This document shows positions 50 through 40,735 of a stretch of 64,000 nt of DNA, piece after piece. The notes beneath the pieces are model-generated. The model was not told the DNA's origin. It saw nothing but the letters and a program-made list of their open reading frames with translations, and made no database searches. Within the stretch, counting starts at the first letter, position 1; every line of letters starts with the position of its first letter. A program made the translations under genes and the position numbers. Source of the DNA: Mermis nigrescens (taxonomy: Eukaryota; Nematoda; Enoplea; Mermithida; Mermithidae); contig JAVLUZ010000272.1 in assembly GCA_036768485.1 (NCBI GenBank), positions 120,034-184,033 on the forward strand, given 5' to 3'.

Positions 50-1061
50 TTTCTTCCAAAAAAGTAGATGAAATAAGTAGCAAATTTGACAAATTAGTCA
101 AGGCGCAAATTGAACAACCGACTGATCAGCAGACAAAATTCCTATAAAATAAGAGAACTAGTTTTATCTTTGAATTGACTCCTTATATACCAAAAGTGGT
201 GTACTAAAAAAATTAGTATACTAATATTTTCAGCCAATCAGAAACGAGCTGGCATAGTGCCAACCAATCAAAAGTCAACAAATTAGTGTACTAATTAAAC
301 GTGTTCAGACGTGTTCAGACAGACAAAGAATTGACATACTAAAAAAGTAGTGCTGTATCAAATTCAATTCAGACAGGCTGCAAAATTAGCATACTAAAAT
401 TGGTATATCAAAGAGAAAAATTATCAAAATTGGCATGGCAACTAAATAAAATCAACCATAACATAAAAAACTCAAAATTAGCACTAACTATGCTATGCTA
501 TTCATTAAATTGATAAAAAGAGCCAAAAATTAGCATACACATGCATTCATTGCATAACCTAAAAATTAGCATAGCCATGCATTCTCATTACTTAACTTAC
601 ATAGAAATAGACCAAAAATTAGCATTAGACTGATAAAAGAAATAAAAGAAAAACTGTATTAAATTTATAAAAAGAATTAAAAAATAGCATATGTGTGCTA
701 CATATATTACTACAACAGATGAAAATTAACATACTTATGTGGGTAAACATAACTGGTAAAAAACAATTCAAATTATCATATACTGATATTAATGACTATT
801 ATTAAAAAGCAAAAATAACCATATGCATACATATATTAATGTATCATGCATAGCAAATGCTAATTTTTCTGTCTGTTTTCTCCTTTTGATACACTAATTT
901 TTTAGTATGCTAATTTTTGACACATCTGAATGGATTGTTATGATACCTATATAATTATTTTCTAATTTGCTAACTTTCAATTGGTTGGCACTAATACATG
1001 AAAACTCCTTCTGATTGTGAAAATATTAGTATACTAGAGAAAGTTTTTATTTTATTTTGGT

Positions 1062-1069
1062 ATATAAGG
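1062..1069 (+). promoter_or_regulatory. TATA box of pPolB, element A
   Basis: GGTATATAAGGAGCCGAC lies 142 bases upstream of the ATG at 1204. The same string (with one or two changes) precedes pPolB in element B at 41002-41009 on the minus strand, and its mirror sits at 182-189. Conservation across diverged copies supports a real core promoter. Confidence 0.6.
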
Positions 1070-1203
1070 AGCCGACCAAAGAGCAAGACTAGTCTCTTCT
1101 TATTTTACTTAATTTTGTCTACTGATGCATTGATTTATTTTCAATTTTAGCTCTGATCAATTTGTCAAGTACTCACTTATTTTGTCTACTTTATTGGAAG
1201 AAA

Positions 1204-4200
1204 ATGGATCAACAATTGCACAAGCATCAGAATCATTCAATTCCCCGACATCAATCGCAACTGCTGAAAACTAAAAGGACATTATCACCTCCTGGATTTG
1301 GATTAATAACCCGGCTTTGACTAACGCTATATGGAGAAATGGATCAACCTCATGCACAACACCTCACTAACAACCGCCATTTGTCAACTTGCGGTTGAAG
1401 AAAACACTCGACTGCTGCGGTGCCCGACCGACTCTGGAATTGCTGCAGCAAATGGTGGATTTGGAGCTGTGCGGGCAGGCTTCTCAGCGTATTGACATAT
1501 ATTTTGAAAAATTTGTTGAAAAGGGGCTAAAAAGACTTGAGTTTGGATCTGTAGCGTTCTGGAATGCCATCTTGGGAGAGCGGGATGAAGGCAGAGAGCA
1601 GTTTGGTGGTGGCCTGTCTTTGAACGAGTTTTACGAGGTGGGCGAGATGTATTGCTTAAGGGTGCGGACGTTGACACCGACGCTTGGGGGTACAGCCTAT
1701 GGCTGAGAAAGCGCACGAATGAGGTCCACAATTTTGGACATCTCGTGATCAGTTTTGATCATGCGCTTGAGCGAATTTTAGATGGCTGTGCTCCCGAGGA
1801 TATGGTGGGGTGAGCAAATACATCCCTCTCACCATTTCCACCGAGTTTTATTCCTTCTCACCACCGCCAGCTCCTGAATGCCAACCGCATCCTGAGCGTG
1901 GTGATGCGATGAGTCAATCCAGCACGATTTTAATTTTAATGATCTGCTTTTTGGAATGTAATTATTGTTGACGCCCCTATGGGAGCCGGGGGAACCATTA
2001 AGAAGTTGGGTAAAAAAACGCGCATTGTTAATTGGGGAAACACAGGATACCATTGCGGGAACAGGGGCTGTTTTATTGAAATTCAAAATAATGATAAATT
2101 GTGCTGCCCGGGCCACGGTTGTTGCTTGTGCTCGCCTCGACAGGGATAAAAAGGAGGGAAAGTATTAGGAAGGGGGATAAGTGGGGTGGGACCCTGCAGA
2201 AGAAATTAGCCATTGAGCTAATGGGAGCTGCAGGTCAGGCAACATGAGAGACCCTGTGGCTTGGATGAGGTAGCAAAAATTCAAAATTATTTAACCCCAT
2301 AATTTTCAAATTAAAATTTATTCTAAAGATCATATGGATGCTTTAATTTATGCCGTCCTGACTCTGATAAAATCATTCATTTATATCTTCATCATAACCA
2401 CTTTGATGTTATTACGCACATGCCAGCATTCTTTGGCGCGTCTTACTGCAAAATATGCGATGAGTTATAGTAATTCTGAAAATCATATTTGTAATAGAGG
2501 CGCATGCACTTGTTGCAGTACTACCCCCCCCCCAATGTGCATTTGATAATTGGAAATCTTGTTCTGATTGTAATAGATGGTTTATGAGCAAAAGTTGTTT
2601 TAATAATCATAAAACGAGCCAAAAAATTTAAAAAGGGCGAAAAATTCCGCCTGTTGGTTTGCTCAACCGTCAGTCGTTGTAAAAAATGCAATCAATTATT
2701 GAAAACAAGTAAAAACGGTAAAAATCATGAATGCAGTCAAATTTATTGTACTACTTGTTCTATGTATGTTGATAAAGTTAATCACAAATGTTATATGATG
2801 CCCATACCCCCCGATTCTGAACCCAAACAAAAACCTACTTTTATTTTCTTCGATTTTGAAACTTGTCAGGGACAAAGAGTTTGGCAGAAATAAACAAGGG
2901 GATAAAAATTTCTTGCACACCCCCAATTGCTGTGTTGCGTATAAAGTCTGCAGAAACTTGTATAAATGAAGAGTTGGGAAATTGCGCTAAATGTGGGTTT
3001 AATAAATTTTATTTTTCTGGTCAAAACTGCTTAAACGAGTTTTGTCACTGGTTATTGTAAAGAAAATGAAGGCGCGACTGCACTTGCGCATAATGCTAGT
3101 GGTTTTGATTCTCAGTTTTTATTGCAATATTTAAAATCATGGCACAATTAATCCTAAACTTATTTGTCATAGGCTGCCAATCTTGATGCTTGAAGCAGGA
3201 AGGTGCGGGTCATTGACTCCATGAATTTCTTCCACTCAGCCTCTCATCTCTACCAAAAACATTCGGGATTTTGGAACTAAAAAAAGGGTATTTCTACCAT
3301 TTTTTTAATACACTCGAAAACTGGAACTATTCTGGCGGCCTTCCCAATATTGACTTTACGCCCCCAATAATATGAAGGAAGAGGCGCGTACAGAGTTTTT
3401 GAACTGGTATGCGCAAGAAAAATTGTTAAATAAACCGTTTAATTTGCAAAAAGAATTAATGGAATATTGCGAATCTGATGTTGATATTTTAACACGTTGC
3501 TGTTTAAAGTTTAGGCAAATTTTTATTTCTGAAATGGGGGTTGATCCCTTCCTTGTTAGTATTACTATTGCTTTGGCTTGTAATTACATTTTTCGTAAAA
3601 ATTTCCTAACCCCCAAACCGTCGGCATTGTGCCGCATGGTGGGTATTTAAGTAAAGAAAATCAATCAATAATTGCGTTAAAATGGTTAAAATATATTTCT
3701 GAAAGTCAAAATATTCATATTCGTCATAAATTAAACGGGGGCGAAATTAAAATCGGCAAATATAAAGTTGATGGTATTTGCGGTAAAACAATTTATGAAT
3801 TCAAGGGTTGTTATTTTCATGGTTGTCCTAAATGCATGTCTGATTGTAAAAATTAACTGCTGATAAACGTACTGCTGAAGAAGCGTATTTTTCTACTGTT
3901 GATCGTAAAATGCTTTTGCAAAGTCTTGGCTATACTGTTATTGAAAAATGAGAATGCGAGTTAAAAAAAGGAATTAAACGAAAATTGGGAAATGAAAAAA
4001 TATTTTGACGAACTTTAATTAATTACGCCTCTAGGCCCCCGTGAAGCTTTTTACGGGGGTCGCACTAATGCTATTAAATTATTGCACATTTGCGCGCCTA
4101 ATGAAAAAATTGAATATGTAGATGTTTGTAGTTTGTACCCATGGGGTTGCAAAACCGGGGAATTTCCACTCGGCTATCCACAAATTTTTACGGAAAATTT

Positions 4201-5415
4201 TAACCCACTTTCGGAAAAAACTTATAACGGCATTATTAAATGCACCTTTATCCCCCCAAGAGGCCTCTTCCACCCTGTCCTCCCCTACCGTTATGACGGC
4301 AAGTTATTGTTTCCTCTATGTAAGCAATGCGTTCTTGATAAAGTTGACGATTGCGAGCATTCTGATGTGCAGCGCACGATTATGGGGGCTTGGATTAGTT
4401 TAGAAATTTATAAAGCTCTCGAACTTGGATATAAAATTTTAAAAATTCACGAAATTTGGCATTACTCAAATTTGGATAAGTACGACCCAACCAGCAAGAC
4501 TGGCGGTCTTTTTACCGCTTATATAAATAAGTTCTTGCGTTTAAAGCAGCAAGCGGACGGATACCCTTCCAATTGTAAGACTGATACCGATAAAGCTGAT
4601 TATATTGCTAATTATGAACGCATTGAAGGTATTGCGCTTGATTCTAGTAAAATTGAGAAGAATGCTGGCATGCGCTCGCTCGCTAAACTTATGCTAAATT
4701 CTTTTGGGGTAAATTCGGACAAAGAAATAATATGTCTCAAATTAAATATATTTCTGATCCTAAAGAATTTACTAATTTAATGTTTGATTCTGCTAAAGAA
4801 ATCAGATCTATGCGGTTTATTGGAGAAAATATCATTTGCTGCACTTATATTGTTGAAGACGAATTTTTGGAAGCTCTTAATAATACTAATCCCATCATTG
4901 CCTCTTATGTCACGTGTCAGGCGCGCTTGAAATTATATACTTATTTGGAAAAGTTGCAGGACCGACTTCTGTATATGGATACAGACTCGGTAATTTATTT
5001 AAGCAGGCCGGATGATCAATATACGGTGCCAATCGGCCCGTATTTGGGCAATATGACGAATGAATTGCGAGCGTTTGGCAAAAACGCGTACATTTCCAAA
5101 TTTGTTTCGGGCGGACCGAAAAATTATGCCTACCGCGTCACGACTGATGGAAGAAATATGGTGCACAAGGTGCAGAAGTCTAAAGGTTTCAATTTGAATT
5201 ATTCTGTTAAACAAGAAATTACTTTTGACTATTTGAAAAAAATGGTGGTTGGATTTTCTTTAGGTGAGGAATACATGAGGACAATTGTGGAAAAGAGAAT
5301 TTTAAGGCATGGTGAACACAATATTTTAACTAGCATGTGTAAGAAAGATTATCGGGTTGTGTACGATAAAAGATGCCTCTTCCCCAACTATTGTACGCTA
5401 CCGTTCGGTTTTTAA
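1204..5415 (+). pseudogene. pPolB: Protein-primed family B DNA polymerase (Polinton/adintovirus type), degenerate
   Basis: This would replicate a linear double-stranded genome by protein priming. Visible in order: an N-terminal region with the family pattern, now broken; two Cys/His-rich zinc-binding stretches (about 2470-2780); exonuclease motif I, FDFET, near 2855; motif II, NASGFDSQF, near 3095; motif III, YCESDVDIL, near 3468; the P-HGG-YLS region near 3625; polymerase motif A, DVCSLYP, near 4122; motif B, KLMLNSFG, near 4690, where the aromatic-Gly part is disturbed; motif C, YMDTDSVIY, near 4975; and a C-terminus ending in LPFGF. At least eight frameshifts or stops separate these pieces, so it is a pseudogene. 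A second copy lies inverted at 36620-40735 and is better preserved. The spread of about 4.2 kb fits the family. The start at 1204 follows the conserved TATA box; a duplicated ATGGATCAAC also occurs at 1339. Confidence 0.93.
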
Positions 5416-5429
5416 TTATTTCTGGTTTA

Positions 5430-5830
5430 CCCGTGCCTTATTTTATTATTTGACCCTCTGACCGTCATTTTTTGTTTATTTTGTTCCTCTGGCCAGTACC
5501 TGTCTTGAAACAAAGCGTGACTGGACAAGACATCATTTTGTTTAGTTCTTATTTTTGTGTATTTCGTTCCTCTGGCCAGTACCTGTCTTGAAACACAGCG
5601 TGACTGGACAAGACGTCATTTTGTTTTGTTCATATGACGGTCATGGTTACTATTTCGTTTTTTCTCGCCTGCCTGTCGGATCTACCTGAAAAGAGCAAGT
5701 GCCGGTGGGTAGTCGAAACACGGGTTGAGTTTTTTGTTTATTTCGTTCCTCTGGCCGGTACCTGTCCGAAAAACAGCGTGACCGGACAAGACGTCATTAT
5801 TTTTATTTTATTAGAGAAATAGTAAAAACC
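5430..5830 (+). repeat. Repeats downstream of pPolB (CCAGTACCTGTC / GCGTGACTGG units)
   Basis: Three clear copies (near 5484, 5570 and 5746) and one diverged copy (near 5660) of a unit containing TTCCTCTGGCCAGTACCTGTC followed by AGCGTGACTGGACAAGACGTCATT. The start and end of each core can pair (CCAGT with ACTGG), so each could form a small stem. The array begins just after the pPolB stop and is conserved, inverted, in element B at 36230-36590. No ORF is supported here. Confidence 0.7.
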
Positions 5831-6079
5831 GGGACAGTAGCGCATACCCGTAAATAAGTAAAAGGCATCATTGTTGTATATAAACCGGTAGTCTTTTTTG
5901 TACATTCTAGCTAAAATATTGTCGTGTTTTTCATCCCTTTAAATTTCCATTTCCATTTTTGTATTATCGTGTTCCTTCATCTATTCCGGATGCCAACGGA
6001 AAAAAAGAAGAAGAAAATTTAAAAAATCGAAACCATCAGCCCAAATTTGGCTGAATGTAAAATTTATTATTTCTTTTAT

Positions 6080-6170: not shown

Positions 6171-7560
6171 AGGATCTTATTATTTTTTATTAAGATATAC
6201 GTAAATTCAAGAAAATTTAGCTTTATCTCGATTTTTGAATATATTATTAAAATCCCTTTATTTTTAGCTAATGCATGTTTAATTAATGAATTTTTTCTCA
6301 GAACTAGTTTAAGAAATTTGCGTATGTTTCGTTTCCTAAGTAATTATTATTGTATCTATTTCGTATATTTTACCCCCGACCCTTTTGAGAGGCAATGGTT
6401 GGCGACGAATCGAACTTGCCGCACATATGGTGGGTTTATTTTTACGAAAAGCGGAGTAAGGGGGCAAAAATTGAAACTCAGAGGGCCTCGTATTTATTTT
6501 AAGTTCTATTTTTAAGATTTTTCTTTATTTTTAAGTTTTTTCTTTATTTTTAAGTTTTTCTTTATTTTAAATTCTTTTTATAATCCCCACTAAATTGGTA
6601 TACTGATATTCTTAATGTTTGGGCGCCTAAAAGCGATATATTTAGTTTTAGTTTTTTTCTTTATTTTTAAGATTTTCTTCTTAAATTTAATTCATTTATT
6701 AACACATCTAAAATTAGTATACTAAAATTCTTGATTTTTGGAAATGCAGCGCCGAAAATGGATATTGGTGTACTAATATTGATGCAGTAGAATTGGCGTG
6801 CTAAAATTGTATATTACGTAATTGATACGCTAAAATTAGTAGACTTGGAATAAAATGTTTGGGAGGACTGGGGAGGGTAGTATTTTCATATGTCCCGAAA
6901 AGCAAAAGCACAAAATCCATTTTAGATACTAGTTTTACGCTGTATAGCATAAGATACGTTATATGGGTGGGCATCCTTAGTCTTAGTTTAGTCCGACTCG
7001 TCCCGCTTAAATTCATATGATTCGTCCACGATTGCTTTATCCGTCGACCTGAAAAACCAAAAGCGATATAATTAATCTTAGTTTAACTGGGGTTGGGACT
7101 GAGTAAGCGTAGGACACGTTGTTGGGGGGTCCATCGCCGCAAAAATGATGCAATTGTGATCATAGAATTATCATTTTCTGTTTATTTTGTAATGTCCTTT
7201 TGTTTGCATGGTTTTATATGATGATTATGATTATTGAAAATCGTTATTAACAATATTTTTACATGAGTACAATGATGCACTCCCTTCAAGGCACTTATGG
7301 TACCTTTGATACATAAAAAACAAAAACAATTATCATCATATGATGCGTCCACCATAGGGCCGATTAATTTGTCCGACGGTAGTTTAGTCTTAGTTTAACT
7401 CGGGTACCGCGTGCCGCCTCCCATCACTGGCGGTCCCCCAGTCTGCATAGGACACGCTGATTGAAGGGAGGGTCCGTCCACGACCCACCTACGCTTAATT
7501 AGGTTCAGGTCTCTAATTGGCTCGGCTAGGCTGGTGAATGTCCGGTCACTGGCTTACTTT
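6171..7560. other. Gene-poor terminal region of element A
   Basis: No ORF here shows a recognisable protein. The stretch is AT-rich with runs of TTTATTTTTAAG (6500-6700), several TTAGTATACTAA-type words (6595, 6715, 6770, 6830), and repeated blocks around AGTCTTAGTTTAACT (6980, 7070, 7385). GTAGGACACGTTG-type blocks near 7105, 7445 and 7970 are shared with the left terminus of element B. It lies where element B carries its F-box and TBP genes, which I cannot find here. Confidence 0.5.
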
Positions 7561-7803
7561 ACATTTAGGCTTGGATTCGGGGGTTGCACTCCCTAACTAT
7601 TTATTAGTACACCAATTCCGCTTAACTATTGCGGTTTACACTTACGCTTAGTTTACACTTAGGCTTCAATTCGGGGGTTGCACTCTCTAACTATTTATTA
7701 GTACACCAATTCCGGTTAACTATTGCGGTTTACACTTACACTTAGTTTACACTTAGGCTTCAATTCGAGAGTTGCACTCCCTAACTATTTATTAGTACAC
7801 CAA
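7560..7803 (+). repeat. Tandem repeat, about 92-bp unit, 2.7 copies
   Basis: The unit runs from TTTACACTTAGGCTTCAATTC through TTGCACTCCCTAACTATTTATTAGTACACCAATTCCG and a GTTAACTATTGCGG block, then repeats. Copies start near 7560, 7655 and 7748 and differ by few bases. It lies within the subterminal part of element A. Confidence 0.8.
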
Positions 7804-7804
7804 T

Positions 7805-7884
7805 TTGGGCTCGCTCAGGTTAACTCTCAATTTTATTCTACCAAAAATTAGTATACTAACTCCAGTAAGCCACCCTTAACTACT
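7805..7884. repeat. Polinton-type terminus ending at 7884
   Basis: Read on the minus strand from 7884 this begins AGTAGTTAAGGGTGGC and continues with TTAGTATACTAATTTTTGG, matching the termini of element B (32575 and 49954). The following bases GATGTA would be its target-site copy, but the other end lies outside the window. A second terminus follows at 8306. Confidence 0.6.
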
Positions 7885-8306
7885 GATGTAATGCTCATTA
7901 TATACATACATATGTAGTATGACTTTGGAGCTAGGCTTAGGAGGGTCTGGGGTTTCCACTCACTGAGCATAGGACACGTGGTCTTTGGGGGTCCATCACA
8001 GGCCACCCAGAATTTCGGCCTCATTTAGGCTCCTCAACTACTTTTAGTACACAAATCCTACCCCCACCTTCGTCCGCCAGAATTAGTCTACTAAAGTTTT
8101 CGTTGACATCAAATTAGGGTCGCTAGGGTTCTTTGGACCTCCCAAAATTTTAGTACACCAATTTGGGCTTGCTCAAGTCAGCTATTTATTAGTCTACCAA
8201 ATTTTTAGTACACTAATCTTGGCGTGCTCGGGCCTGCCCCTGCCGCCTATGCTACAACGTGTCCTATGCTTAACCATTGCGCCCCAGGGTCCTCCCCTTA
8301 ACTACT
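7885..8306. repeat. Second Polinton-type terminus ending at 8306
   Basis: Read on the minus strand from 8306 this starts AGTAGTTAAGGGGAGGACCC and then GGGGCGCAATGGTTAAGCAT, matching the left terminus of element B (32575-32940) over about 370 bases. It shares the GCATAGGACACG, GGCCACCCAGAATT and GGCGGACG blocks. The next bases, TAGGTG, would be the target duplication. It is either the outer end of element A or the remnant of an older element into which A inserted at 7884. Confidence 0.7.
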
Positions 8307-8405
8307 TAGGTGGAACAGACGATCTATTGGGAAAACGCCTGCAAATGTATTATTATGTATGAGAATTTTGAATATTTCAATAGTGTTCATGTTTATGCAT
8401 CTAGT

Positions 8406-9690
8406 TCATGAAACGTGTTTCAGGTTTTTATCAATCATTATTGAGTTATCAAATTCAGCATATATAATGAATTCAATGCCAGAATCGGGTAAATTCTCAG
8501 AAAACCTCAACATTGGTGATGCTTGTTGTTCCTTCATGGACTAGGTCCCAGTGTCCTCCATCATCTGCATCAGGAGTCAAATCAAACACAAAGAAGCAGT
8601 GACTTGTATTAAAGATCTTCTCTGCTAATAAAATTACCTTCATTGCCCAATATCTAATGCATCAAACATCTGAGTATAAGGCTTGCAAGTACCTGTCAAG
8701 TTAAAATGAAATGTTGAGTGGGTAGGCAGGATACATTATACCTCCACACGTTACTTTTACATCATTTATGCTGAACGGTCTGAAGTTGAAAGGCGATTTT
8801 GCTAGATTGCCTCGATAAGCACTGCCTTCAACACAAGCAAACACTATACGCCTAGGCAGCTGACCAGTAAACAATGTATAATTGGGCGTTTCTCTAGCAG
8901 GATTTGAAATGTGCAAATTGGTCGAAGCTACTCTCCTTATGGGATATTTTGCTGTATAAGGAAAGCATTGTTTGCTCAAGAGCTAAATTCACAGTGTCCA
9001 AAGCCTCAACTTTTCGAATAAAAAATTTCATTTGTGAGACTTTCAAGTCAAGGCTGACATCCTCAAAGCACTGCAAAACAAACGCATTAATTTCTGTGTA
9101 ATTCTAGGCGGAAGTTGGTAAAATTAACTAAATATCTGTCTTGCAAGAACATGTCAATGTGCAGGGAGGCCGCAACTTCCACAACATTTTCATCTTTGAA
9201 CATTTTTTGAACGTTTTTTGAAAGCTTCATTGTCTTTTGTGTCAACATCACTTCCACCTTTGTGAAAGTACAGCGCAGATTGCAAATATGTCTTAGCATC
9301 ATACCCATAATTTAATTTGGTTTCAAAATACGATCTATATGCATATTTATCAGAGCTGTCAAAAACTAATTTGCCTCCTAAAAAGCATTTTACCTGCTTA
9401 AAGAAAGTCTTACCAATAAGATTGATAGGCGCATAGTCAGGCACTGCTGCTCCAGCAACAACTACTGGTTTTTTGATTCTCAGTAGCATTTAAATGTAGT
9501 TTTTATTGAGCTGAATGTAATGTGGATCAGGAGGTACTCTAAATTCATATGGTCCCTCATTAGTAATAGGATTTGTAGGTTGAAATTCATGCCAAAAACC
9601 ACACTTTATCACTACTTGAGTAAGAGGGACCGTGAAAAGGTCCAGTTCAGTCTTGGTACTGGGGATAGATTTTCCGTTTTTGAGAGCCAT
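8406..9690 (-). pseudogene. MCP: Major capsid protein (double jelly-roll, Polinton/adintovirus type), degenerate
   Basis: The product would form the hexon-like capsid shell of a Polinton or adintovirus particle. Recognisable pieces in order: the ELDLFTVPLTQ N-terminus (near 9650); the NLIGKTFFKQVK block with YAYRSYFETKLNYG (9440-9310); the QDRYLVNF block (near 9140); YPIRRV (near 8945); the strongly conserved TGQLPRRIVFACVEGSAYRG and SPFNFRPFSIND blocks (8870-8750); FDLTPDADDG (near 8560); and a C-terminal YAEFDN (near 8450), ending at a TGA at 8406. Five or so frameshifts or stops break it. About 430 codons fits the family's lower range. An in-frame ATG exists at 9711, but the ATG at 9690 lies 41 bases from the TATA box, matching the neighbours, so I prefer it. 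It heads a row of minus-strand virion genes and lies only 100 bases from the terminus at 8306. Confidence 0.9.
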
Positions 9691-9721
9691 TCTTTTGTTT
9701 TGAAAAAGCATCTATCATGCT

Positions 9722-9733
9722 AGTATTTATAGA
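9722..9733 (-). promoter_or_regulatory. TATA box of MCP gene
   Basis: On the minus strand this reads TCTATAAATACT, 41 bases (from TATA to ATG) upstream of the preferred MCP start at 9690. The core TATAAATACT precedes the genes at 10094, 10959 and 11709, so it looks like a shared viral core promoter. Confidence 0.75.
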
Positions 9734-10094
9734 CTTTGGGCGGCTACCAAGACCCTCTTTTTGCTGCTGCTGAAGGGCATGAGAGGCTTCATCAAACAAT
9801 TGAGTAGCTTCTTGCTTTGAGTGTTCTTTAGTAGACTCAAAAAGCTGTTTTCCTGGGCCAAATCAGATGCTATGTTTGAACCTGCAACTAGAGCATGTCT
9901 TCCAACTCGCTTACCAATTGACTGCAAAACTGGGACTGCCATTCTAAAAGCGAACGGAAAAAACTGCCAAGACCTACGCCCAGCTGGTATGGGATGCCTT
10001 TATAACCTTCCAACCCATAGCCTGTTTGGGCAGTCTGCCCTGTGTAGTAGTCCAACCAAATGTTGTAATTGTTAGGATTGAATTGAACGTGCAT
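9727..10094 (-). pseudogene. Small virion protein, pX-like (Polinton/adintovirus), frameshifted
   Basis: The N-terminal part (from 10094) has the family pattern of a Tyr-Tyr-Thr-Gly-Gln block, then a Tyr-Gln-Leu-Gly-Val-Gly-Leu-Gly-x-Phe-Phe-Arg-Ser-Leu segment. After one frameshift near 9945 comes a second half with GKRVGRHALVAGSNIASDL and a basic tail. In adintovirus-like genomes such short Gly-rich basic proteins lie next to the capsid gene and are compared with adenovirus pX; membrane or DNA binding in the virion is inferred from that. The stop overlaps the TATA box of the MCP gene. The TATA box at 10131-10142 supports the start at 10094. Confidence 0.7.
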
Positions 10095-10130
10095 TTTTGT
10101 AATTTTGTTTTGAATAAATTATATATGATA

Positions 10131-10142
10131 AGTATTTATAGA
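10131..10142 (-). promoter_or_regulatory. TATA box of pX-like gene
   Basis: Minus-strand AGTCTATAAATACT lies 46 bases upstream of the ATG at 10094 and overlaps the stop codon of the upstream gene (10136). This is the compact packing expected of a virus genome. Confidence 0.75.
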
Positions 10143-10703
10143 CTTTCATCCCAGTCGAATTCCCCACCTGCAGCAAAAATCTCCTTACCTTGTCTATTTA
10201 CTATACTTTCCAGTGGAACATTTGTGCAATTAAACACTTTCAGCAATTCTTTTGTGCCAGGGTGCCTGCTTATTTTCTTAAGCTCACGTGCAAGATTGTT
10301 AGCTAAATCTGTAATGTTTGAGCCTTCAATTCTATTGTCATCTATCACAAGCTCTCACCATTAGACTCAATTTCAATAAATGGGTTTGTACAAATGTAGT
10401 GAAGAAGGAGTTTTGCCTTTGGGATCTGATTTTGGCATACCAACAAGCACATCTTCATCACTCATTGCATTCTTTGTATCTTCAACTATACTTAGCTCTA
10501 CATGGCTGCTGCTTTTGTTCATATAGTTGTTTAAATCTGTTAAGCACCTGATTGTATTTCATGAGTTTTATTTCAGGAGCTGTCAGTTTTGCTATGCAAA
10601 GTTTTTGCATTTCATTATCTAAGGAATCTAGCACAACATCAATAGGTTTAGTCCGCTCACTGATTTCAGCAGGTATAAGAATCATTTTTTCAGTATGTTT
10701 CAT
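10136..10703 (-). pseudogene. Conserved Polinton/adintovirus-associated protein of unknown function, frameshifted
   Basis: The start MKHTEKMILIPAE with a following LDSLDNEMQKL and a Lys-x-x-x-Tyr-x-x-x-Leu segment is a pattern I associate with small ORFs beside capsid genes in arthropod Polinton-like elements. After a frameshift near 10490 come an acidic Ser/Asp-rich linker and a C-terminal part with RHPGTKELLKVF and a final EFDWDESL. A few stops lie near 10370. The start codon overlaps the stop of the upstream ORF (ATGA), and no separate TATA box is visible, so the two may share a transcript. Its role is not known to me; a virion or assembly protein is only a guess from position. Confidence 0.6.
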
Positions 10704-10959
10704 TTTCTACCAGCTATTGCATCAGCTAACAAACTACCAGCTATTGTTAGTATGGGAGTAAGTAAAGAGAAGAAAAACCACCTTCCTGTATTATAATATC
10801 TTTCTTTTGTTTTGTAGTCGCCTGCTTATTGTTTGCCAGGTATCTAATTTGATTCTGATATCTTCAAAGTTTCTTTATATCCTTTTCATTGGAAGGAATA
10901 TTACCATTCAGAAAGTTGTTTGCACAGTCACAGAGACAAAGGATTTGATCTTTTGCTGG
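10700..10959 (-). pseudogene. Small protein with hydrophobic C-terminus, Polinton-associated
   Basis: Begins just after the TATA box, with KDQILCLCDCANNFLNGNIP, a lysine-rich middle, and a C-terminal QEGGF then LLTPILTIAGSLLADAI segment that looks membrane-associated. One stop (near 10870) and one frameshift (near 10770) break it. The first codon would be CTG at about 10959, so the start is probably mutated. The QxGG-hydrophobic tail is a pattern found in small virion ORFs of this virus group; I give no firm function. The last codon overlaps the next ATG (ATGA at 10700-10703). Confidence 0.5.
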
Positions 10960-10960
10960 C

Positions 10961-10970
10961 AGTATTTATA
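10961..10970 (-). promoter_or_regulatory. TATA box of small hydrophobic-tail gene
   Basis: Minus-strand TATAAATACT, identical in its ten-base core to the boxes of the MCP, pX-like and ATPase genes, although the preceding TC is changed to AT. Confidence 0.6.
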
Positions 10971-11039
10971 ATAGCGGTTCTTTGAGGTTTTGCTTGACTC
11001 AGGAAATGTAAACAACCAATATTGTGTGTTAATTGTTCT

Positions 11040-11709
11040 TTACCCATTTTTTCTTTTTTTTGTCACTATATCTCTAATAGTATTTGTAGATTTCTGCAAA
11101 GAAACAGTTGGATGCCTGCTAAAAATATTTGTTCTTAAGCTGTAGCTCATCTCTAGCATTTTGAGTTAGATCAATTAAAAGGTGACCATGTGGCTGAGAA
11201 GTGTAGCATCAGAATAAGCTTCTATAAAAGATTAAGTGTTGGCAGGATAGAGCTGTCTAGAGAGCATTTGGGCCTGTAGCTGATCAGCAGGTTGTTTGAA
11301 CAAAGTTATATAATCAAAGTTTATGCCTAGGAAGTTCTTGAGACCATCAAAGAAAACGTTCTGAACAATCGTGTATAATGCTAATGTTTTAATGATGACA
11401 GCTCCTTGTAAAAAGTTGCATAATCTGGGCATTACCCTTACTCTGTTGCATAAGATCATTGAGAATCAAAGTTTGAGGCACATGACTAAATTGTTTTAGG
11501 TAATTAAAATCAGGAAGCCCTCGTATGAATAAAACATTGTTTAATTTTTATAAAGAGGCTGATTTTCTGCAAAGCACCACCAAATTTTTTGATTTTAGTA
11601 TCAATTAAGCATGCTTTATTCTCAATTAATTGCTTGACGAATGTTGTATCGCCTGACTTTATTGGTTTGGTCCTGAAACAAGGCAGGTAAAAGGATGTTG
11701 GAACATCAT
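11040..11709 (-). pseudogene. FtsK/HerA-type genome packaging ATPase, degenerate
   Basis: This would pump viral DNA into the capsid. The N-terminus MMFQHPFTCLVSGP leads into a Walker A region that reads SGDTTF where the family has SGKT or SGKS, so the catalytic Lys is lost, and a frameshift lies just before it. A Walker B-like LILNDLM (family DDLM) lies near 11475. A middle part with TIVQNVFFDGLKN, DYITLFKQPADQLQAQ and SRQLYP follows (11380-11240). The C-terminal PHGHLLIDLTQNAR and a basic end near 11045 match the closing part of Polinton ATPases. At least five frameshifts or stops are present. About 220 codons is the normal family size. It shares a 45-base divergent promoter region with the TBP-like gene at 11755. 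Confidence 0.8.
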
Positions 11710-11718
11710 GGTTTTAGG

Positions 11719-11752
11719 TATAAATATAAGTTTATCAGGAAGTATTTATAGA
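11719..11752. promoter_or_regulatory. Divergent promoter: TATA boxes for TBP-like gene (+) and ATPase (-)
   Basis: TATAAATATAAG on the plus strand starts at 11719, 36 bases before the TBP-like ATG at 11755. TCTATAAATACT on the minus strand (11741-11752) has its TATA start 41 bases before the ATPase ATG at 11709. Both boxes fit in one short intergenic stretch. Confidence 0.75.
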
Positions 11753-11754
11753 AA

Positions 11755-12273
11755 ATGGTAAGTATACAAAATATTTTACTGACTACAGCACTACCTTATA
11801 CACTGGCCTCAAAGACATCACCAGAATTACCAAAGACTGCACAATACAATTATTTGAGATATCCAGGAATTATATTTTTGACTACCTCAGAGCAACATTA
11901 CTGATATTCAAATTGGGTAAAATTGTATGTGTTGGAGCCAAAACAGCGAATAATGGTGAAAGTGCTATAAAAGTAGCTGTAGATGCATTAAATGCTATAA
12001 AGTGATGATTTAAAGGTGAAACCCCATATGTTTCAGGTTTGGCAAATTTAGGGTTCCACATTAATCTTTGCAAATTTTATGAGCTGGTGAAAAGAAAATG
12101 CATGTATGAAGTGGGATTGTTTCCTGGCTTAATATACAAGTTTTGCAATGTAACATTTATAGTCTGTCACAAGCGGAAAATTAATCCTTACAGGTGCAAA
12201 CAAGGCGCATGAGTTGCACAGAGCATATAAAATAGTTTCAACAAGGCTTGAGAAATGCATATTAGATACATAA
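11755..12273 (+). pseudogene. TBP-like: TATA-binding-protein (TBP) homologue in the virion cluster, frameshifted
   Basis: TBP core domains bind TATA boxes through two pseudo-repeats. Repeat 1 starts SIQNILLTT (family QNIVxTV), continues YNYLRYPGIIF, and after a frameshift near 11886 shows LLIFKLGKIVCVGAKTA. Repeat 2 shows a diverged start, INLCKFYELV, YEVGLFPGLIYK, and after another frameshift LTGANKAHELHRAYKIV up to a stop at 12273. The intercalating aromatic positions (LIF-x-x-GK, FPGLIY) and the GA[KN] turns are kept. The length, about 172 codons, equals a bare TBP core. Two stops separate the repeats near 12002. It diverges from the ATPase gene with its own TATA box. A second, separately diverged TBP homologue lies at 34084-34650. 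A captured host TBP is an alternative, but its place inside the virion cluster argues for a virus gene. Confidence 0.8.
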
Positions 12274-12295
12274 TATTTAACACTTTGAGAAAATA

Positions 12296-12540
12296 ATTAC
12301 TAAATTTGACAAAAAATATTCCAAACTTTACAAAAAATATTGCAAATTTTACAGAAAAATTCCCCAAACTTGACAAAAAATATCCCAATTTTTACAAAAG
12401 TACTATGCTTGAGATATTTTTTTATTCCAAATTTTACAAAAATATTCCTTACTTTACAAAAAATATTCCAAACTTTACACAAAATGTTCCAAACTTCACA
12501 AAAAATATTACAACATTTACAAAACATTCCTATCTTTGCA
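12296..12540. repeat. Short tandem repeat, about 20-21 bp unit, roughly 11 copies
   Basis: Imperfect copies of a unit like AACTTTACAAAAAATATTCC. Both strands stay open only because the repeat lacks stops, so the predicted Asn/Lys/Phe-rich products are not genes. It directly follows the TBP-like gene. Confidence 0.85.
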
Positions 12541-33050: not shown

Positions 33051-33252
33051 CTAATATTAAGTGTATCCATTTTATTTTTTCAGGTTGATTATCGGATGAA
33101 GCGATCGATAATTGTTGTTGTTCTCTATGTACGTGTATTACAATACAACATATGTATGTACATACATATTATTTGCTAAAGTGAATTGTGAAACAGACTA
33201 TAGCCTTTATCCTAGCAGAATTTGATATATGATATGGTCGTTGATATACTTT

Positions 33253-33633
33253 TCATAAAAAGTTTTCATAAAATTCCTTTGTTTCATCGTTAAATTTGTG
33301 CCAAAACTGGCATAACGATTCAAAATTTCTCATTTTAAGGTAATATTCCAATTCGTTAATAAATGACCATTTCTCTCGCTTTTGTCTGTACTCAGGTCTC
33401 ATTTTCAACCAAAAGTACCTGCCCAACTTTCCTTCTTCCATGTATCCGTACTTTAAAATGTGTGAGACAATGTGCTTGTAAATACCTTCTCCTTTTTGAC
33501 GCCATTTTGATATATTACATTCTGGGTATTGCGTATATTTATAAACAAAGTCTATAAACACTAGCAATATTTTCGAGTATTTTAAAACAAAAATGGAGGA
33601 AGTAATGAAAGAGATCCAAAAGCGACCCTTCAC
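33253..33633 (-). CDS. Unknown protein of element B, about 126 aa
   Basis: An uninterrupted minus-strand ORF. From Val-Phe-Ile-Asp-Phe onward it is rich in aromatic and charged residues: NISKWRQKGEGIYKHIVSHI, KLGRYFWLKMRPEYRQKREK, CQFWHKFNDETKEFY. The first 25 residues are hydrophobic (FWISFITSSIFVLKYSKILL), so it could have an N-terminal signal or membrane segment. Alternatively, translation may start further in, because the region overlaps the 5' end of the plus-strand ORF at 33593. I do not recognise the family. Confidence 0.5.
   Translation of the reverse strand: MKGRFWISFITSSIFVLKYSKILLVFIDFVYKYTQYPECNISKWRQKGEGIYKHIVSHILKYGYMEEGKLGRYFWLKMRPEYRQKREKWSFINELEYYLKMRNFESLCQFWHKFNDETKEFYENFL
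33551..33564 (+). promoter_or_regulatory. TATA box of ORF 33593, near-match to the virion motif
   Basis: TCTATAAACACTAG, with its TATA start 40 bases before the ATG at 33593. It differs by one base from TCTATAAATACTAG of the MCP gene (9722-9733) and has the same spacing, linking promoters of element B and cluster C. Confidence 0.65.
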
Positions 33634-33799
33634 GGAAGTGGAAACTAAAAGGGATGAAGTAATACCAAAAGTAGAGGAAAAGATGACCGAAAAAGTAAAA
33701 ATTGATGAAAAGCAGCAATTTATGGATGAGGACGTAAAACCTTACGGGAGGACAATTCGACCCCTATTGAGTTGTGCGGCAAAAATCTACAAAGGCTGA
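33593..33799 (+). CDS. Small charged protein of element B, unknown
   Basis: 68 codons from a good AAAATGG start, Glu/Lys-rich (FTEVETKRDEVIPKVEEKM), with a less charged end (YGRTIRPLLSCAAKIYKG). No domain recognised; the charged part may be helical. A TATA box lies 40 bases upstream. The 5' end overlaps the minus-strand ORF at 33253-33633. It stands before the TBP-like gene on the same strand. Confidence 0.5.
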   Translation: MEEVMKEIQKRPFTEVETKRDEVIPKVEEKMTEKVKIDEKQQFMDEDVKPYGRTIRPLLSCAAKIYKG

Positions 33800-34083
33800 T
33801 GTACACGCTTTTGATTCAGTTATGCGAATACTGTCAAAATCGTAGTTTGACTTGAAATGTGTTTGAAACAAATTTGGGGGTACTGTACATACGTATAGAA
33901 ATGTGTCCGAGGTGTACCAAATTTAACAGAGCCATGCAAGAAGCAGGCAAAAGAGTCTTGAAACGTTATCCGTAAAACTTACTTACATGTATATCCCTAT
34001 CTTAAGGCACCCATGAAACTTATGCGGCGCGTCTACCATATATACTTACGTACTTAGGTAGGTACCTATGTACAGTACTTAAA

Positions 34084-34650
34084 ATGAAGGTGCAGAATAT
34101 CGTCAGCAGTGTTGACAGCAAAAAAAGAATCAGTTTACATCACATTCACAGTGATTATCCTAATGTTAAATACAAACCTCACAAATTTCCAGGTCTAATT
34201 TTTTGTATGACTAACCCAAAATCAACTTTACTGTTTTTCGAGTCTGGAAAAATTGTATGCGTTGGGTCGAAAACGGTTGAAGAAGCTAAACAGACATAAG
34301 AGAAAGGATTAGAAATTATCGATTCAAATACTAATCTCAAAGTCAAAATTCACATGTTTGTTGGTTCATTCTGTTTAAATTCTCCAATTAATCTATCAGA
34401 CTTTTACGAAAATGTGAATAGAAAGAGCGAATACAAGCCCGAGATTTTCCCGGGTCTCGTCTACAGAATGAGAAACACTACCACAATTTTGTTTTCGAGC
34501 GGCAAAATTATTGTAACTGGTGCAAAATATGTGCAACATCTAAATCAAGCTGAACATATCTTAACAACACTACTAAAACAGCACGTGCCAAATATACACT
34601 TCTGTTCATTTAAAGCCCTTAAAAGGGCCGTTGGGTTAAAAATTCTATAA
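34084..34650 (+). pseudogene. TBP-like: TATA-binding-protein homologue of element B, one internal stop
   Basis: 188 codons spanning the whole two-repeat TBP core. Repeat 1: MKVQNIVSSVDSKKRISLHH, KYKPHKFPGLIFCM and LFFESGKIVCVGSKT. Repeat 2: GSFCLNSPINLSDFY, YKPEIFPGLVYRMR and LFSSGKIIVTGAKY with a helical end. In TBP, QNIV Asn and Val and the Phe residues in KRFPG, LIF and ELFPG positions contact the minor groove; most are kept here (Phe in HKFPG, FF-ESGK, EIFPG, LFSSGK). The repeat 2 Asn site is changed to Met-Phe and the repeat 1 TGA[KR] Thr is Val. A single TAA after EEAKQT (near 34297) splits the repeats; otherwise it is open, so it decayed recently or is read through. There is no N-terminal extension. 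CATATATACT at 34037 is a possible TATA box. Confidence 0.9.
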
Positions 34651-34828
34651 AAAGCGTTGCTCGCAAGGGTACGTCATTCTATCCAATCGCAATACGTAGC
34701 GCATCTTGGCGTCAAAATCGTACGGCATTTGTCCACTTGTGCTCTAGTAATATTAGTGTATCAACTTCACAACCCTACACGATATAAAAATTAGTAGACC
34801 AATGTTTGATATTCACTTTAGTGTAAAG

Positions 34829-34837
34829 TATAAATAC
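34829..34837 (+). promoter_or_regulatory. TATA-type boxes upstream of the F-box gene
   Basis: TATAAATAC at 34829 and TATAAATA at 34868 lie 65 and 26 bases before the ATG at 34894. The first resembles the motif used in cluster C. Confidence 0.45.
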
Positions 34838-34893
34838 ATGCATATATGTACAAAAGCAATCAATTTGTATAAATAAAACTAGTATACACAGAA

Positions 34894-35558
34894 ATGAAGA
34901 TTTTCAAAATAAAGAAAAAACTTAAATTAAATATGCTACCCCCGGAGCTATTGGTTAAAATATTCAAGTATTTGGACGGGAGAACGAGACTGAAACTGCA
35001 AAGAGTATGTCAAAAATGGTTGGAAATTATAGAAAATTTTAATTTTTGGCCCATTTCTCACAAAATTGTTCTGACAATTTCTGACGGTAACCTTATTCTC
35101 ACCACCCCGCTTTTTGTAAAAACAAACCCAACATTTGAGCAAACTATGAGTGTGTTGAAAATCGTCAATCCAGTCAAATTGAAAATTTGCGACAAGTTAG
35201 ACAAGTTAAGACTTTTCAGTTTTGTCCTGGAAAAAGATTAAACTATTTCTTAGTTAATTTTCTTACGTGCAACAATAAAATGATGTGTCGCACTTTTGTC
35301 TTCAATTTATGTAAAACATTAGCAGACAAATCCCAAAAATGTGTTCTAGTGATAAGTATAGGACAATTAGGGTTTTCAACGCATTACGATTTTGAAGATT
35401 ATGTAATTGAGAAACACATCTCAGTCAATTACTATACATTATACATATGCCAACATAAATATGCAATTTGGAAAAAACATATATTCGATAAAAAGTATAT
35501 AATATCTATATATGATGTGGATAGGAAGGAAGAACTTTATCCTCAATTCATGTTTTAA
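34894..35558 (+). pseudogene. F-box protein 1 of element B, one frameshift
   Basis: The N-terminus has a basic start then LNMLPPELLVKIFKYLDGRTRLKLQRVCQKW, a clear F-box (residues about 13-50: Leu-Pro-x-Glu-Leu, Ile-Phe-x-Tyr-Leu, Val-Cys-x-x-Trp). After about 110 codons a shift near 35200-35240 leads to a second half (to 35558) with FNLCKTLADKSQKC and YFEDY-like, Tyr/Lys-rich sequence. F-box proteins bind SKP1 and bring substrates to SCF ubiquitin ligases; the C-terminal part would choose the substrate and has no repeat that I recognise. It follows the TBP gene on the same strand. F-box genes are not part of the standard Polinton set. Confidence 0.8.
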
Positions 35559-35922: not shown

Positions 35923-36229
35923 ACTGCAACGTCGATTTTAATTAAAATAATGAAATACTTTCAGACATATTCGGGCTGTCAGCCATATTTGGGCTGAAAA
36001 AGTCGATTTTTTAATTTTTATTTTCTAATTTTTTTCTGTTGGCATCCAAGATAAATGAAAAACACGATAAAACAAAAATGGAAATGGAAATTTAAAGGAA
36101 TGAAAAAACGACAATATTTTAGCTAGAATGTACAAAAACGACTACCGGTTTATATACAACAATGATGCCTTTTACTTATTTACGGGTATGCGCTACCGTC
36201 CCAGTTTTTACAATTTCTCTAATAAAATA

Positions 36230-36590: not shown

Positions 36591-36619
36591 AAATAAGGCA
36601 CGGGTAAATCAAGAGACAA

Positions 36620-39600
36620 TTAAAAACCGAACGGTAGCGTACAATAGTTAGGGAAGAGGCATCTTTTGTCGTATACAACCCGATAATCCTTCTTACACAT
36701 GCTAGTTAAAATATTATGTTCTCCATCCCTTAAAATTTTCTTTTCCACAATTGTCCGCACGTATTCATCACCTAAAGTGAATCCAACCACCATTTTTTTC
36801 AAATAGTCAAAAGTAATTTCCTGTTTAACAGAATAATTCAAATTGAAACCTTTAGACTTCTGCACCTCGTGCACCATATTCTTTCCATCAGTCGTGACGC
36901 TAGTAGGCATAATTTTTTGGTCCGCCCGAAACAAATTCAGAAATGTACGCGTTTTCGCCAAACGCTTGCAATTCGTTCGTCATATTGCCCAAATACGGCC
37001 CTATTGGTACCGTATATTGATCATCCGGCCTGCTTAAATAAATTACCGAGTCTGTGTCCATATACAGAACTCGGTCCTGCAACTTTTCCAAATAGGTATA
37101 TAATTTCAAGCGCGCCTGACACGTGACATAAGACGCAATAACAGGATTAGTATTATTAAGAGCTTCCAGAAATTCGTCTTCAACAACATAAGTGCAGCAA
37201 ATCATATTTTCGCCAATAAACCGCATAGATCTGACTTCTTTAGCAGAATCAAACATTAAATCTAGTAAATTCTTCAGGATCAGAAATATATTTAATTTGA
37301 GACATGTTATTTCTCTGTCCGAATTTACCCCAAAAAGAATTTAGCATTAGTTTAGCGAGCAAGCGCATGCCAGCATTCTTCTCTATTTTACTAGAATCAA
37401 GCGCAATACCTTCAATGCGTTCATAATTAGCAATATAATCAACTTTATCAGTATCAGTCTTACAATTGGAAGGGTATCCGTCCGCTTGCTGCTTTAAGCG
37501 CAAGAACTTATTTATATAATCGGTAAAAAGACCGCCAGTCTTGCTGGTTGGGTTGTACTTAGTCCAAATTTGAGTAATGCCAAATTTCGTGAATTTTTAA
37601 AATTTTATACCCAAGCTCGAGAGCTTTATAAATTTCTAGACTAACCCAAGCCCCCGTAATTGCGCGCTGCGCATCAGAATGCTCGCAGTCATCAATTTTA
37701 TCAATAACGCATTGTTTACATAAAGGAAATAATAATTTGCCGTCATAACGGTAGGGGAGGACCGGGTGGTATAGGCCGCGCGGGGGGATAATCGTGCATT
37801 TAATAATGCCGTTATAAGTTTTTTCCGAAAGTGGGGTGAAGTTTTCCGTAAAAATTTGGGGATGGCCGAGTCGGAAATTCCCCGGTTTTGCAAACCCAGG
37901 GGTACAAGCTACAAACATCTACATATTCAATTTTTTCATTAGGCGTGCAAACGTGCAATAATTTAATAGCATTAGTGTGACCACCGTAAAAAGCTTCACA
38001 GGGGCCTAGTGGCGTAATTAATTCAATATCGTCAAAATATTTTTTCATTTCCCAATTTTTGTTTAATTCCTTTTTTAACTCGCATTCCCATTTTTCAATA
38101 ACGGTATAGCCAAGACTTTGCAAATACATTTTACGATCAACAGTAGATAAATACAGCTTCTTCAGCAGTACGTTTATCAGCAGTTAATTTATTACGATCA
38201 GACATACATTTAGTACAACCATGAAAATAACAGCCCTGGAACTCATAAATTGTTTTACCGCAAATACCATCAACTTTATATTTCCCAATTTTAATTTCTG
38301 CCCCCATTTAATTTATGACGAATATGAATATTTTGACTTTCAGAAATATATTTTAACCATTTTAACGTGATCATTGATTGATTTTCTTTACTTAAATACC
38401 CACCATGCGGCACAATGCCGATGGTTTGGGGGGTTAGGAAATTTTTACAAAAAATGTAATTACAAGCCGAAGCAATAGTAATACTGACGAGGAAGGGATC
38501 AACCCCCGTTTCAGAAATAAAAATTTGTCTAAACTTTAAACAGCAACGAGTTAAAATATCAACATCAGATTCGCAATATTCCATTAATTCTTTTTGCAAA
38601 TTAAACGGTTTATTTAACAATTTTTCTTGCGCGTACCAGTTCAAAAACTCTGTACGCGCCTCTTCCTTCATATTATCGGGGGCATAAAAGTCAATATCGG
38701 GAAGGCCGCCAGAATAGTTCCAGTTTTCGAGTGTATTGAAAAAATGGGGGAAATACCCTTTTTTTAGTTCCGAAATCCCGAATGTTTTTGGTAGAGATGA
38801 TAAAGCCGAGGGGATGAAATTCATGGAGTCAATGACCCGTACCTTTCCCGCTTCCAGCATCAAGATTTGCAGCCCACGACAAATAAGTTTAGGATTAATT
38901 GTGCCGTGATTTTGAAAATATTGCAATAAAAACTGAGAATCAAAACCGCTAGCATTATGAGCAAGTGCAGTAGCGCCTTCATTTTCTTTACTAAATAACC
39001 AGTGACAAAACTCGTTTAAGCAGTTTTGACCAGAAAAATAAAATTTATTAAACCCGCATTTAGCGCAATTTCCCAACTCTTCATTTATACAACTTTCGCA
39101 GACTTTATAAGCAATGCAGCAATTGGGGGTGTGCAATGAAATTTTTATCCTCTTGTTTATTTCTGCCAAACTCTTTGTCCTGACAAGTTTCAAAATCGAA
39201 GAAAATGAAAGTTAGGTTTCCGTTTGGGTTCAGAATCGGGGGAATTGGCATCATATAACATTCGTGATTAACTTTATCAACGTACATACAACAAGTAGTA
39301 CAATAAATTTGACCGCATTTATGATTTTTACCATTTTTACCCGTTTTCAATAATTGATTACATTTTTTACAACGACTGACGGTTGAGACAAACCGACAGC
39401 CAAAATTTTTCGCCAATTTTAGATTTTTTACCAGTTTCATGATTATTAAAACAACTTTCGCTCATAAACCATCTATTACAATCAGAACAAGATTTCCAAT
39501 TATCAAATGCGCATTGGGGGTAGCGATCGCAACAAGTGCATGCGCCTCTATTACAAATATGATTTTCAGAATTACTATAACCTTTATCGCATATTTCGCA

Positions 39601-40735
39601 GTAGTAAGACGCGCCGAAGAATGCTGGCATGCGCGTAATAACATCAAAGTGGTTATGATGAAGATATAAATGAATGATTTTATCAGAGTTGGGGCCGGCA
39701 TAAATTAAAGCATCCATATGATCTTTAGAATAAATTTTAATTTGAAAATTAGGGGTTAAAAAATTTTGAATTTCTGCTACCTCGTCCAAACCACAGAGTC
39801 CCTTGTGCTCGCCTAGACCCGCAGCTTCCATTAGCTCAACGGCTAATTTCTTCTGCAGGGTCCTCCGACCCCATTATCCCCCTTCCTAATACTATCCCAC
39901 CTCGGATCCCCGTCTGAGACGAGCACGAGCAACAACTATTGGCCCGGGCGAGGCACAATTTATCATTTTATTTTGAATTTGAATAAAACAGACCCCATTC
40001 CCGCAATGGCGGAGCAAACCAGGTATCCCAATTAACAATGCGACGTGTTTTTTTACGCATGTTATGGAGTTGGTTCCCCGGCTCCCATAGGGGCGTCAAC
40101 AATAATTACGTTCAAAAGAACCAGATCATTAAAATTAAAATCGCGTTTGGATTGACTCACGCGTTCGACCATGCTCAGGATGCGGTCGGCATTCAGGAGC
40201 TGGCGGTGGCAGAACGGAATTAAAACTCGGTGGTCGAGAGAGGGATGCATCAGTTCGACCCCGACCATATCCTTGGGAGCACAGCCGTCTAAAATCCGCT
40301 CAAGCGCATGATCGAAAACTGATCGAATGAGACGACCAAAATCACAGACCTCATTTGTGCGCTTAAGCCGTAGGCTGTACCCCCGAGCGTCGGTGCCAAA
40401 CTTCTGCACCCTTAAGCGATACATCTCGCCCACCTCGTAAAATTCGTTCAAAGACAGGCCACCGCCTATCTGCCCTGTGCCTTCATCCTGCTCTCCCAAG
40501 ATGGCATTCCAGAACGCAACAGATCCAAACTCGACTCTTTTTAGCCCCTTTTCAACAAATTTTTCAAAAATATATGTCAATACAGTAGGCTCGCCTGAAT
40601 ACAGCTCCAAATCCACCATTCAGCTGCAGCAATTCCAGAGTCGGGTCGGGCGCCACCGCAGTCAAGTCGTTTTCTTCAACCGCAAGCTGGCAAATGGCGG
40701 TCGTTAGTGAAGTGTCGCGGCTGAGGTTGATCCAT
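36620..40735 (-). pseudogene. pPolB: Protein-primed family B DNA polymerase of element B
   Basis: Better preserved than the copy at 1204-5415. In order: N-terminal domain with ERVSQSKRDFNFNDLV and VIIVDAPMGAG (about 40130-40080), a pattern of Polinton polymerases; zinc-binding regions with CEICDKGY, CNRGACTCC, CSDCNRWF (39650-39480) and CKKCNQLL, CTTCCMYVD (39370-39270); exonuclease motifs FDFET (near 39195), NASGFDSQFLLQYF (near 38960) and YCESDVDIL (near 38570); PHGGYLSKENQS (near 38400); KTIYEFKGCYFHGC (near 38240); palm motif A DVCSLYP (near 37915); motif B KLMLNSFWGKFGQ (near 37340); motif C YMDTDSVIY (near 37050); C-terminus LPFGF. All catalytic motifs are present, but about nine frameshifts or stops break the frame. 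The ATG at 40735 corresponds to MDQP in copy A. Length about 1,370 codons. Confidence 0.95.

Follow-up and report, generated by a model that had tools for sequence, protein, structure and literature searches.

Background

The standard gene set of Polintons comprises pPolB, integrase, protease, ATPase and capsid proteins. The initial annotation of the locus described here placed TBP outside this set, and we likewise found no description of a TBP in a Polinton in the literature searched; novelty is meant relative to that literature, one of the searches having been swamped by TBP papers. A term search for TATA or TBP returned nothing from the Polinton papers PMC11071308 and PMC10328495, and only reference-list matches from PMC12220804. 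The remark that some giant viruses carry a TBP agrees with the available excerpts of two papers, which describe a TBP together with eight RNA polymerase subunits and TFIIB in Megavirus (PMC11464507), and a TBP together with a TFIIIB-type factor in CpV-BQ1 (PMC12085832). According to similarly partial sources, 59% of mirusviruses have a TBP (PMC10132985), and TBP genes occur sporadically in putative mirusvirus-derived elements of the alga Cymbomonas (PMC10675990). As far as these excerpts go, the elements reported below resemble giant viruses and mirusviruses in encoding a TBP, and the Cymbomonas elements in doing so as endogenous virus elements of a eukaryote; the latter, however, are described in the part of the paper available as having an HK97-type capsid and as being without PolB, ATPase and double jelly-roll genes (PMC10675990). 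With Polintons/Mavericks and adintoviruses our elements share pPolB, an rve integrase, an adenain-like protease and, probably, an A32-like ATPase and a double jelly-roll capsid, to which they add a standing TBP gene and F-box proteins beside PolB and TBP. F-box proteins in Polintons were not met as a topic in the literature searched.

Results and discussion

TBP1 and the adjoining virion genes

The window, i.e. the whole 64-kb stretch of Mermis nigrescens DNA that was analysed, holds decayed copies of Polinton-type virus elements. We compared it with 20 stretches of 9.9 kb from the same genome (L009-L028), which were picked across score classes and not at random. The initial annotation had located both TBP pseudo-repeats on the plus strand at 11755..12273, and PF00352 matches of pieces bear this out, though the copy is broken: TBP1 (11755..12270, +), a TBP gene of group I (defined below), shows 55-63% identity to the L019 TBP in three pieces, and because its pieces are spread over two frames with stops, it has no single open frame. 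The motifs quoted earlier (QNI, GKIVCVGAK, FPGLIYK and LTGAN) are present in its translations. When the pieces were searched singly against PF00352, two out of four scored above the Pfam curated cut-off (11730-12002, E 2.9e-6; 12009-12209, E 1.2e-5) and two below it (12163-12270, E 0.0097; 11752-11901, E 0.18). Chance matching is excluded by the order of the pieces, their strand and the relatives of the gene.

Genes in the left part of the window were called by tblastn with proteins from open relatives. Next to TBP1, on the minus strand, lie a broken gene for the packaging ATPase (11122..11709; 44% over 200 aa to the L019 ATPase, 9e-36), a piece of a p116 homologue (10774..10956; 77% over 61 aa to L019 p116), a p188 homologue in pieces (10139..10703; 61% and 71% to L019 p188), a p169/p155 homologue, also in pieces (9692..10103; 81% over 54 aa to L019 p169 and 43% over 54 aa to L027 p155), and a broken gene for a major capsid protein, probably of the double jelly-roll type (8515..9696; 66% identity with that of L019 across 400 aa, 1e-162). 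Between the end of the ATPase match at 11709 (-) and the start codon of TBP1 at 11755 there are 45 bases (11710..11754), a divergent promoter with TATAAATATAAG at 11719 (+). A 45-base promoter common to TBP and the packaging ATPase had indeed been proposed, and the gap is kept in the relatives, at 44 bases in L019 and L017 and at 45 bases in L026 and L028. The 4.1-kb block with TBP1, ATPase and capsid genes (8307-12399) forms a single alignment (89.2%) with L026, which lies elsewhere in the genome and in which the TBP, ATPase and capsid genes of the block are open. Identity to the window is 88.4% for L028 (8307-12400) and 79.5% for L019 (8307-12258), and the gene order of the block is repeated in all three relatives. 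The view that this TBP lies inside a virion gene cluster of the Polinton/adintovirus type is thus upheld by collinear ATPase and capsid genes.

TBP2 and the rest of the window

The window contains a second TBP gene, absent from the initial annotation. TBP2 (34084..34647, +), a member of group II, is better preserved than TBP1: two pieces match PF00352 above the cut-off (9e-23, 80.4 bits; 1.2e-19, 70.4 bits), the product is 77% identical over 166 aa to the L013 TBP, and a single in-frame stop (34297-34299) falls between the two repeats. TBP1 and TBP2 are 49% identical over 41 aa in repeat 2. A TBP-profile search, suggested earlier as a check of the locus, hence gives clear PF00352 matches for both genes. 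The region around TBP2 (33200-35201) is 97.3% identical to L012. Its neighbours are a broken gene for a homologue of p113, a small Cys-rich protein (33593..33969, +; 33733-33969 is 57% identical to L019 p113 across 79 aa), an F-box protein gene in pieces (34894..35555, +; PF12937 6.6e-11 on 34873-35238; 66% identity with its L013 counterpart across 123 aa) and a broken gene for DNA polymerase B, recovered as tblastn pieces (36717..40451, -; PF03175 1.7e-21 at 38294-39211). This arrangement (p113, TBP2 and F-box on the plus strand, PolB on the minus strand) is the mirror image of L013 (PolB +, F-box -, TBP -, p113 -).

The latter PolB gene belongs to the right arm of a 5.1-kb inverted repeat (962-6054 and 35979-41109, 90% identical), each arm of which carries PolB. 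The left arm holds a broken gene for a DNA polymerase B of the protein-primed type (1676..5312, +; PF03175 3.4e-16 at 4019-4777), for which tblastn gave 59-83% identity to pieces of the L013 PolB and 25% to the N-terminal part of that of L028. Membership of the protein-primed type is indicated by PF03175 matches in the window, L011 and L013; priming itself is predicted from the family. No tblastn match to a Polinton integrase or to a Polinton protease was obtained within the 64-kb window. Pfam scans around the genes (61 of 95 and 90 of 156 pieces) returned a PHD finger and F-box domains and otherwise weak matches.

Several further features of the window deserve mention. A third copy of the PolB upstream region, mirrored, is found at 7-399, and a second F-box gene at 49176-49502. 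The palindrome TTAGTATACTAA has 21 sites with at most one mismatch, versus 0.2 in Markov shuffles; the sites lie at 213-1037, 6714-8216, 41034-41805 and 49566-49915, with clusters in front of the two PolB genes and of this second F-box gene, and may represent a promoter or origin site of the elements. A PHD-finger match (51570-51794, 1.3e-7) falls outside any assigned element, and a 2.8-kb inverted repeat (54463-57216 and 57352-60106) has arms 98% identical. Judging from the translations, we take other parts of the window to be mariner-like and Gypsy-like host elements.

TBP genes across the genome

A PF00352 profile search of the genome (524 Mb, 860 contigs) gave 2555 first-look candidates and at least 150 scored TBP matches, all above the curated cut-off. 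Stop-free matches make up 142 of the 150 scored, a set in which some genes count twice, once for each repeat, and two rows (contig 73) are the host gene. A group I TBP query gave 2136 candidates and at least 150 scored matches with 71-100% identity (138 of 150 without a stop); the counts from both searches are lower bounds and include duplicates between contigs. From the alignment and the tree, the 20 TBP ORFs of the fetched stretches were assigned to five groups: I (L017, L019, L021, L026, L028), II (L011-L014, L016, L024 and, as a partial ORF, L021), III (L018, L027), IV (L010, L020, L022, L023, L025) and V (L009); the TBP of L015 is partial. Open copies match PF00352 with E-values from 2.1e-48 to 2.5e-45, each over two segments of the protein.

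Matches of at least 50 aa to PolB, integrase, ATPase, capsid protein or protease accompany the TBP in 16 of the 20 stretches, where L015 is counted on one weak PolB match and several queries were drawn from those same 20 stretches; no core element gene of this length was found near the TBP in the remaining four (L009, L016, L022, L025). Among the open ORFs of L019, Pfam identifies an integrase (1.9e-10) and the TBP (2.5e-45), and the ATPase matches PF04665 (Pox_A32; 9.6e-5, with 22.4 bits just short of the cut-off of 22.8) and the protease the C5 family PF00770 (4.5e-4, 20.4 bits, slightly below the cut-off of 21.3). In L027 the TBP (PF00352, 2e-47) is found with a C5 protease (PF00770, 1e-7, 32.2 bits against 21.3) and a capsid protein matching PF21738 (4.4e-4, 20 bits against a cut-off of 27); this capsid protein, of group III, is 58% identical to that of group I (L019), and some of the homologues carry PF21738. 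The rve integrase was also detected in L028 (6.9e-14, with a chromodomain), L012 (3.4e-12) and L017 (2.1e-11); two integrase copies overall have a chromodomain. In L011 and L013, TBP, F-box and PolB (PF03175) occur together. Intact versions next to virion genes, another check proposed at the outset, thus exist within the same genome, as related elements have open TBP genes next to those for integrase, ATPase and capsid protein. The TBP gene of group III follows those of the capsid protein, the protease and p250 on the same strand; since the position of TBP differs in spite of 58% identity between the capsid proteins and 41% between the proteases of groups I and III, TBP has either shifted its position or been gained repeatedly.

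Open F-box genes are situated between PolB and TBP in L011, L013 and L014. The p113 gene is present in 11 of the 20 stretches (L009, L011-L014, L016, L017, L019, L021, L024, L028) as well as in the window; it adjoins TBP in groups II and V and lies near the integrase in group I, and seven aligned copies share five invariant Cys residues. It resembles a zinc-ribbon partner of TBP, but given a low-quality structural model (pLDDT 59) and the lack of Pfam or NCBIfam matches above cut-off, p113 is at most a possible zinc-binding candidate.

A search beyond this genome with the group I capsid protein gave 324 homologues at E <=0.001, and among the matches listed (120 of 324) identity reaches 78% and nearly all come from jgi, lgn, ena or ncbi sources. 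Among 126 TBPs compared with group I (120 of them from 3588 matches), the closest is a metagenome protein, P0092 (49% over 172 aa), which joins group I in the tree with support of 91/85. P0092 and a capsid homologue, P0131 (69% identical), are each found on a contig of 6,582 bases from source lgn, so that the two genes presumably reside on one contig. No relative with gene context was confirmed in the scans of IMG/VR or in contigs of prokaryote genomes.

Ancestry and selection

The host TBP gene (contig 73) has two exons, and its product shares 86% identity with the human core. For eight element TBPs, identity to the host protein is 32-43%; TBPs of groups II-V show 34-47% identity to that of L019. 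A tree was built from 28 proteins, namely 14 of the 20 element ORFs, the host and human TBPs and 12 proteins taken as archaeal, partly from their source names; TRF and the TBPs of giant viruses and mirusviruses were left aside. In it, host and human TBPs pair with support of 99/96, groups I, II, IV and V form one clade (85/88), group III stands beside the eukaryotic TBPs (92/79) on long branches, and the 12 archaeal-labelled proteins are separate (100/99). The AU test does not reject a tree that unites the 14 element TBPs in a single clade (p-AU 0.27); it does reject one that joins host TBP to group I (p-AU 0.0004). The phylogeny against the host TBP, which had also been called for, therefore speaks against placing these sequences as host retrocopies. 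An intron-free and broken gene such as TBP1 is what a recent retrocopy of the host TBP, inserted into a Polinton remnant, might look like, yet the element TBPs show 32-43% identity to the host TBP, itself 86% identical to its human counterpart, and TBP occupies the same place in other element copies. With the tree and the collinear copies both against it, we reject this origin, to which we give practically no chance.

In 17 of 31 within-group pairs dS is 0.2-1.5 and dN/dS 0.11-0.24. Five of the 31 have dS <0.1, with dN/dS of 0.16, 0.46, 0.51 and 0.65 and one undefined; raised values are expected here, where post-insertion decay contributes. Another nine pairs, all from group IV, are saturated, and the pairs are mutually non-independent. 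The element TBPs are under purifying selection. Such selection, together with the many open copies, would also suit a multigene family of the host, e.g. germline TBP paralogues that have element genes nearby by chance. We consider this very improbable: the collinear block with ATPase and capsid genes recurs in the window, L019, L026 and L028, the occurrence of identical scores on numerous contigs suggests that the copies spread recently, and a TBP from a metagenome groups with group I and shares contig size and source with a capsid homologue. TBP is instead a standing gene of the elements, being collinear with virion genes in open copies, diverged into at least five groups and maintained by selection; that it belongs to these elements we regard as almost certain.

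Fold and contact residues

Like cellular TBPs, the element proteins have two PF00352 repeats, the TBP fold and the contact residues. The model of the L019 TBP (pLDDT 92.9) has the full TBP saddle, superimposing on human TBP (1cdw) with TM 0.93 and rmsd 1.4 at 36% identity; the best structural match by E-value is a Sulfolobus TBP (TM 0.88). TBP intercalates four Phe residues into DNA, and it has a DNA-contacting Asn in each repeat and TFIIB-contacting Glu residues in the stirrup. Three of the Phe positions are occupied in 14 of 14 element rows and the fourth in 13 (Tyr in L009), and the repeat-1 Asn and both stirrup Glu residues are invariant (14/14). The repeat-2 Asn, by contrast with the host TBP, is replaced by Leu in group I (4/4) and by Met in group II (2/2), and it is retained in the other eight rows; due to this loss the DNA preference of the two groups may differ. 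After the YExE stirrup, element rows have the eukaryotic L or I, and four archaeal rows have Q. In repeat 1, FPG is found in groups I, II, IV and V and in three of four archaeal rows, versus FAA in the host TBP. On the strength of the contact residues, the element TBPs are predicted to bind TATA DNA and TFIIB.

Promoters and transcription partners

We inspected the upstream regions of 39 hand-picked open element ORFs, using inferred start codons and leaving out genes closely behind a same-strand gene. TATA[AT]A occurs at most 60 bases (and at least 18) before the start codon in 36 of the 39. The three successive 60-base intervals farther upstream contain it in 4, 1 and 6 of the 39, and among random ATGs it precedes 77 of 1093. 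In a less redundant chosen set, a TATA box lies 20-55 bases ahead of the ATG in 19 of 22 genes; at this spacing it precedes 6.9% of random ATGs (n = 2123) and 12.2% of ATGs matched for AT content (n = 649). Several counts weigh against the pattern: the motif is also present on the opposite strand of those 60 bases in 29 of the 39 genes (TATATA reads the same on both strands, and divergent promoters are among those examined), the reverse TTTATA turns up in 6/22 beside TATAAA in 13/22, and a pooled Markov shuffle yields an average of 10 (maximum 20) of 39. Amplified TFIIB genes are not visible (PF00382 gave three matches among 10 candidates genome-wide), and Pfam scans of part of the window and of the element ORFs gave no RNA polymerase match. 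To this extent the elements differ from Megavirus and CpV-BQ1 as portrayed in the available excerpts, for in the scans made no TFIIB or polymerase match was seen; the TBPs of those two viruses stand outside the present tree.

The initial annotation held that this virus lineage has its own TATA-recognition factor. The TBP matches, the rejected host clade and the open copies beside virion genes support this, with TATA recognition predicted from the fold, the contact residues and the promoter layout. The TBP of an active element would bind the TATA boxes of element genes and recruit host TFIIB and RNA polymerase II to their promoters, so that the virus would gain a promoter-recognition step of its own with neither a viral TFIIB nor, as far as seen, a viral RNA polymerase. 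We consider it likely that element TATA promoters are fired in this way by the element TBP with host TFIIB and polymerase II. These TATA boxes could also be read by host TBP alone. If host TBP reads them unchanged, the element protein could be a decoy or brake, which binds host promoters or TFIIB non-productively and so reduces transcription of the host (host shut-off); this is the chief rival explanation. It would accommodate the retained TFIIB and DNA contact residues, and the DNA part could be altered in groups I and II, which lack the repeat-2 Asn. We nevertheless judge it unlikely: 13 of 14 rows retain the full set of four Phe residues, which productive TATA binding would require, and a factor that serves the element's genes would account for the nearly constant position of their TATA boxes. 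A standing element gene that serves as a promoter factor of the virus is, overall, the best explanation and a rather probable one.

Implications

We tentatively propose, as a broader picture that may well prove wrong in part, a clade of small integrating double jelly-roll viruses with TBP as a core gene, which would redirect host TFIIB and polymerase II to start-proximal viral TATA promoters without a viral polymerase or TFIIB; its at least five TBP lineages would have been moved or captured more than once, and two of them, with half of the DNA contact changed (repeat-2 Asn lost), might read promoters in a virus-specific manner. Virus TBPs are known from very large virus genomes, and the giant viruses examined, going by the excerpts available, also carry further transcription factors or polymerase. 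If our interpretation is true, a TBP in small Polinton-type elements, in which no trace of a viral polymerase or TFIIB is seen, would represent a minimal takeover of the first step of transcription. The several diverged and selected TBPs of one genome would provide a natural experiment on changes in partner binding and in the recognition of TATA boxes, and eukaryotic genomes would have in Polintons a supply of mobile TBP genes.
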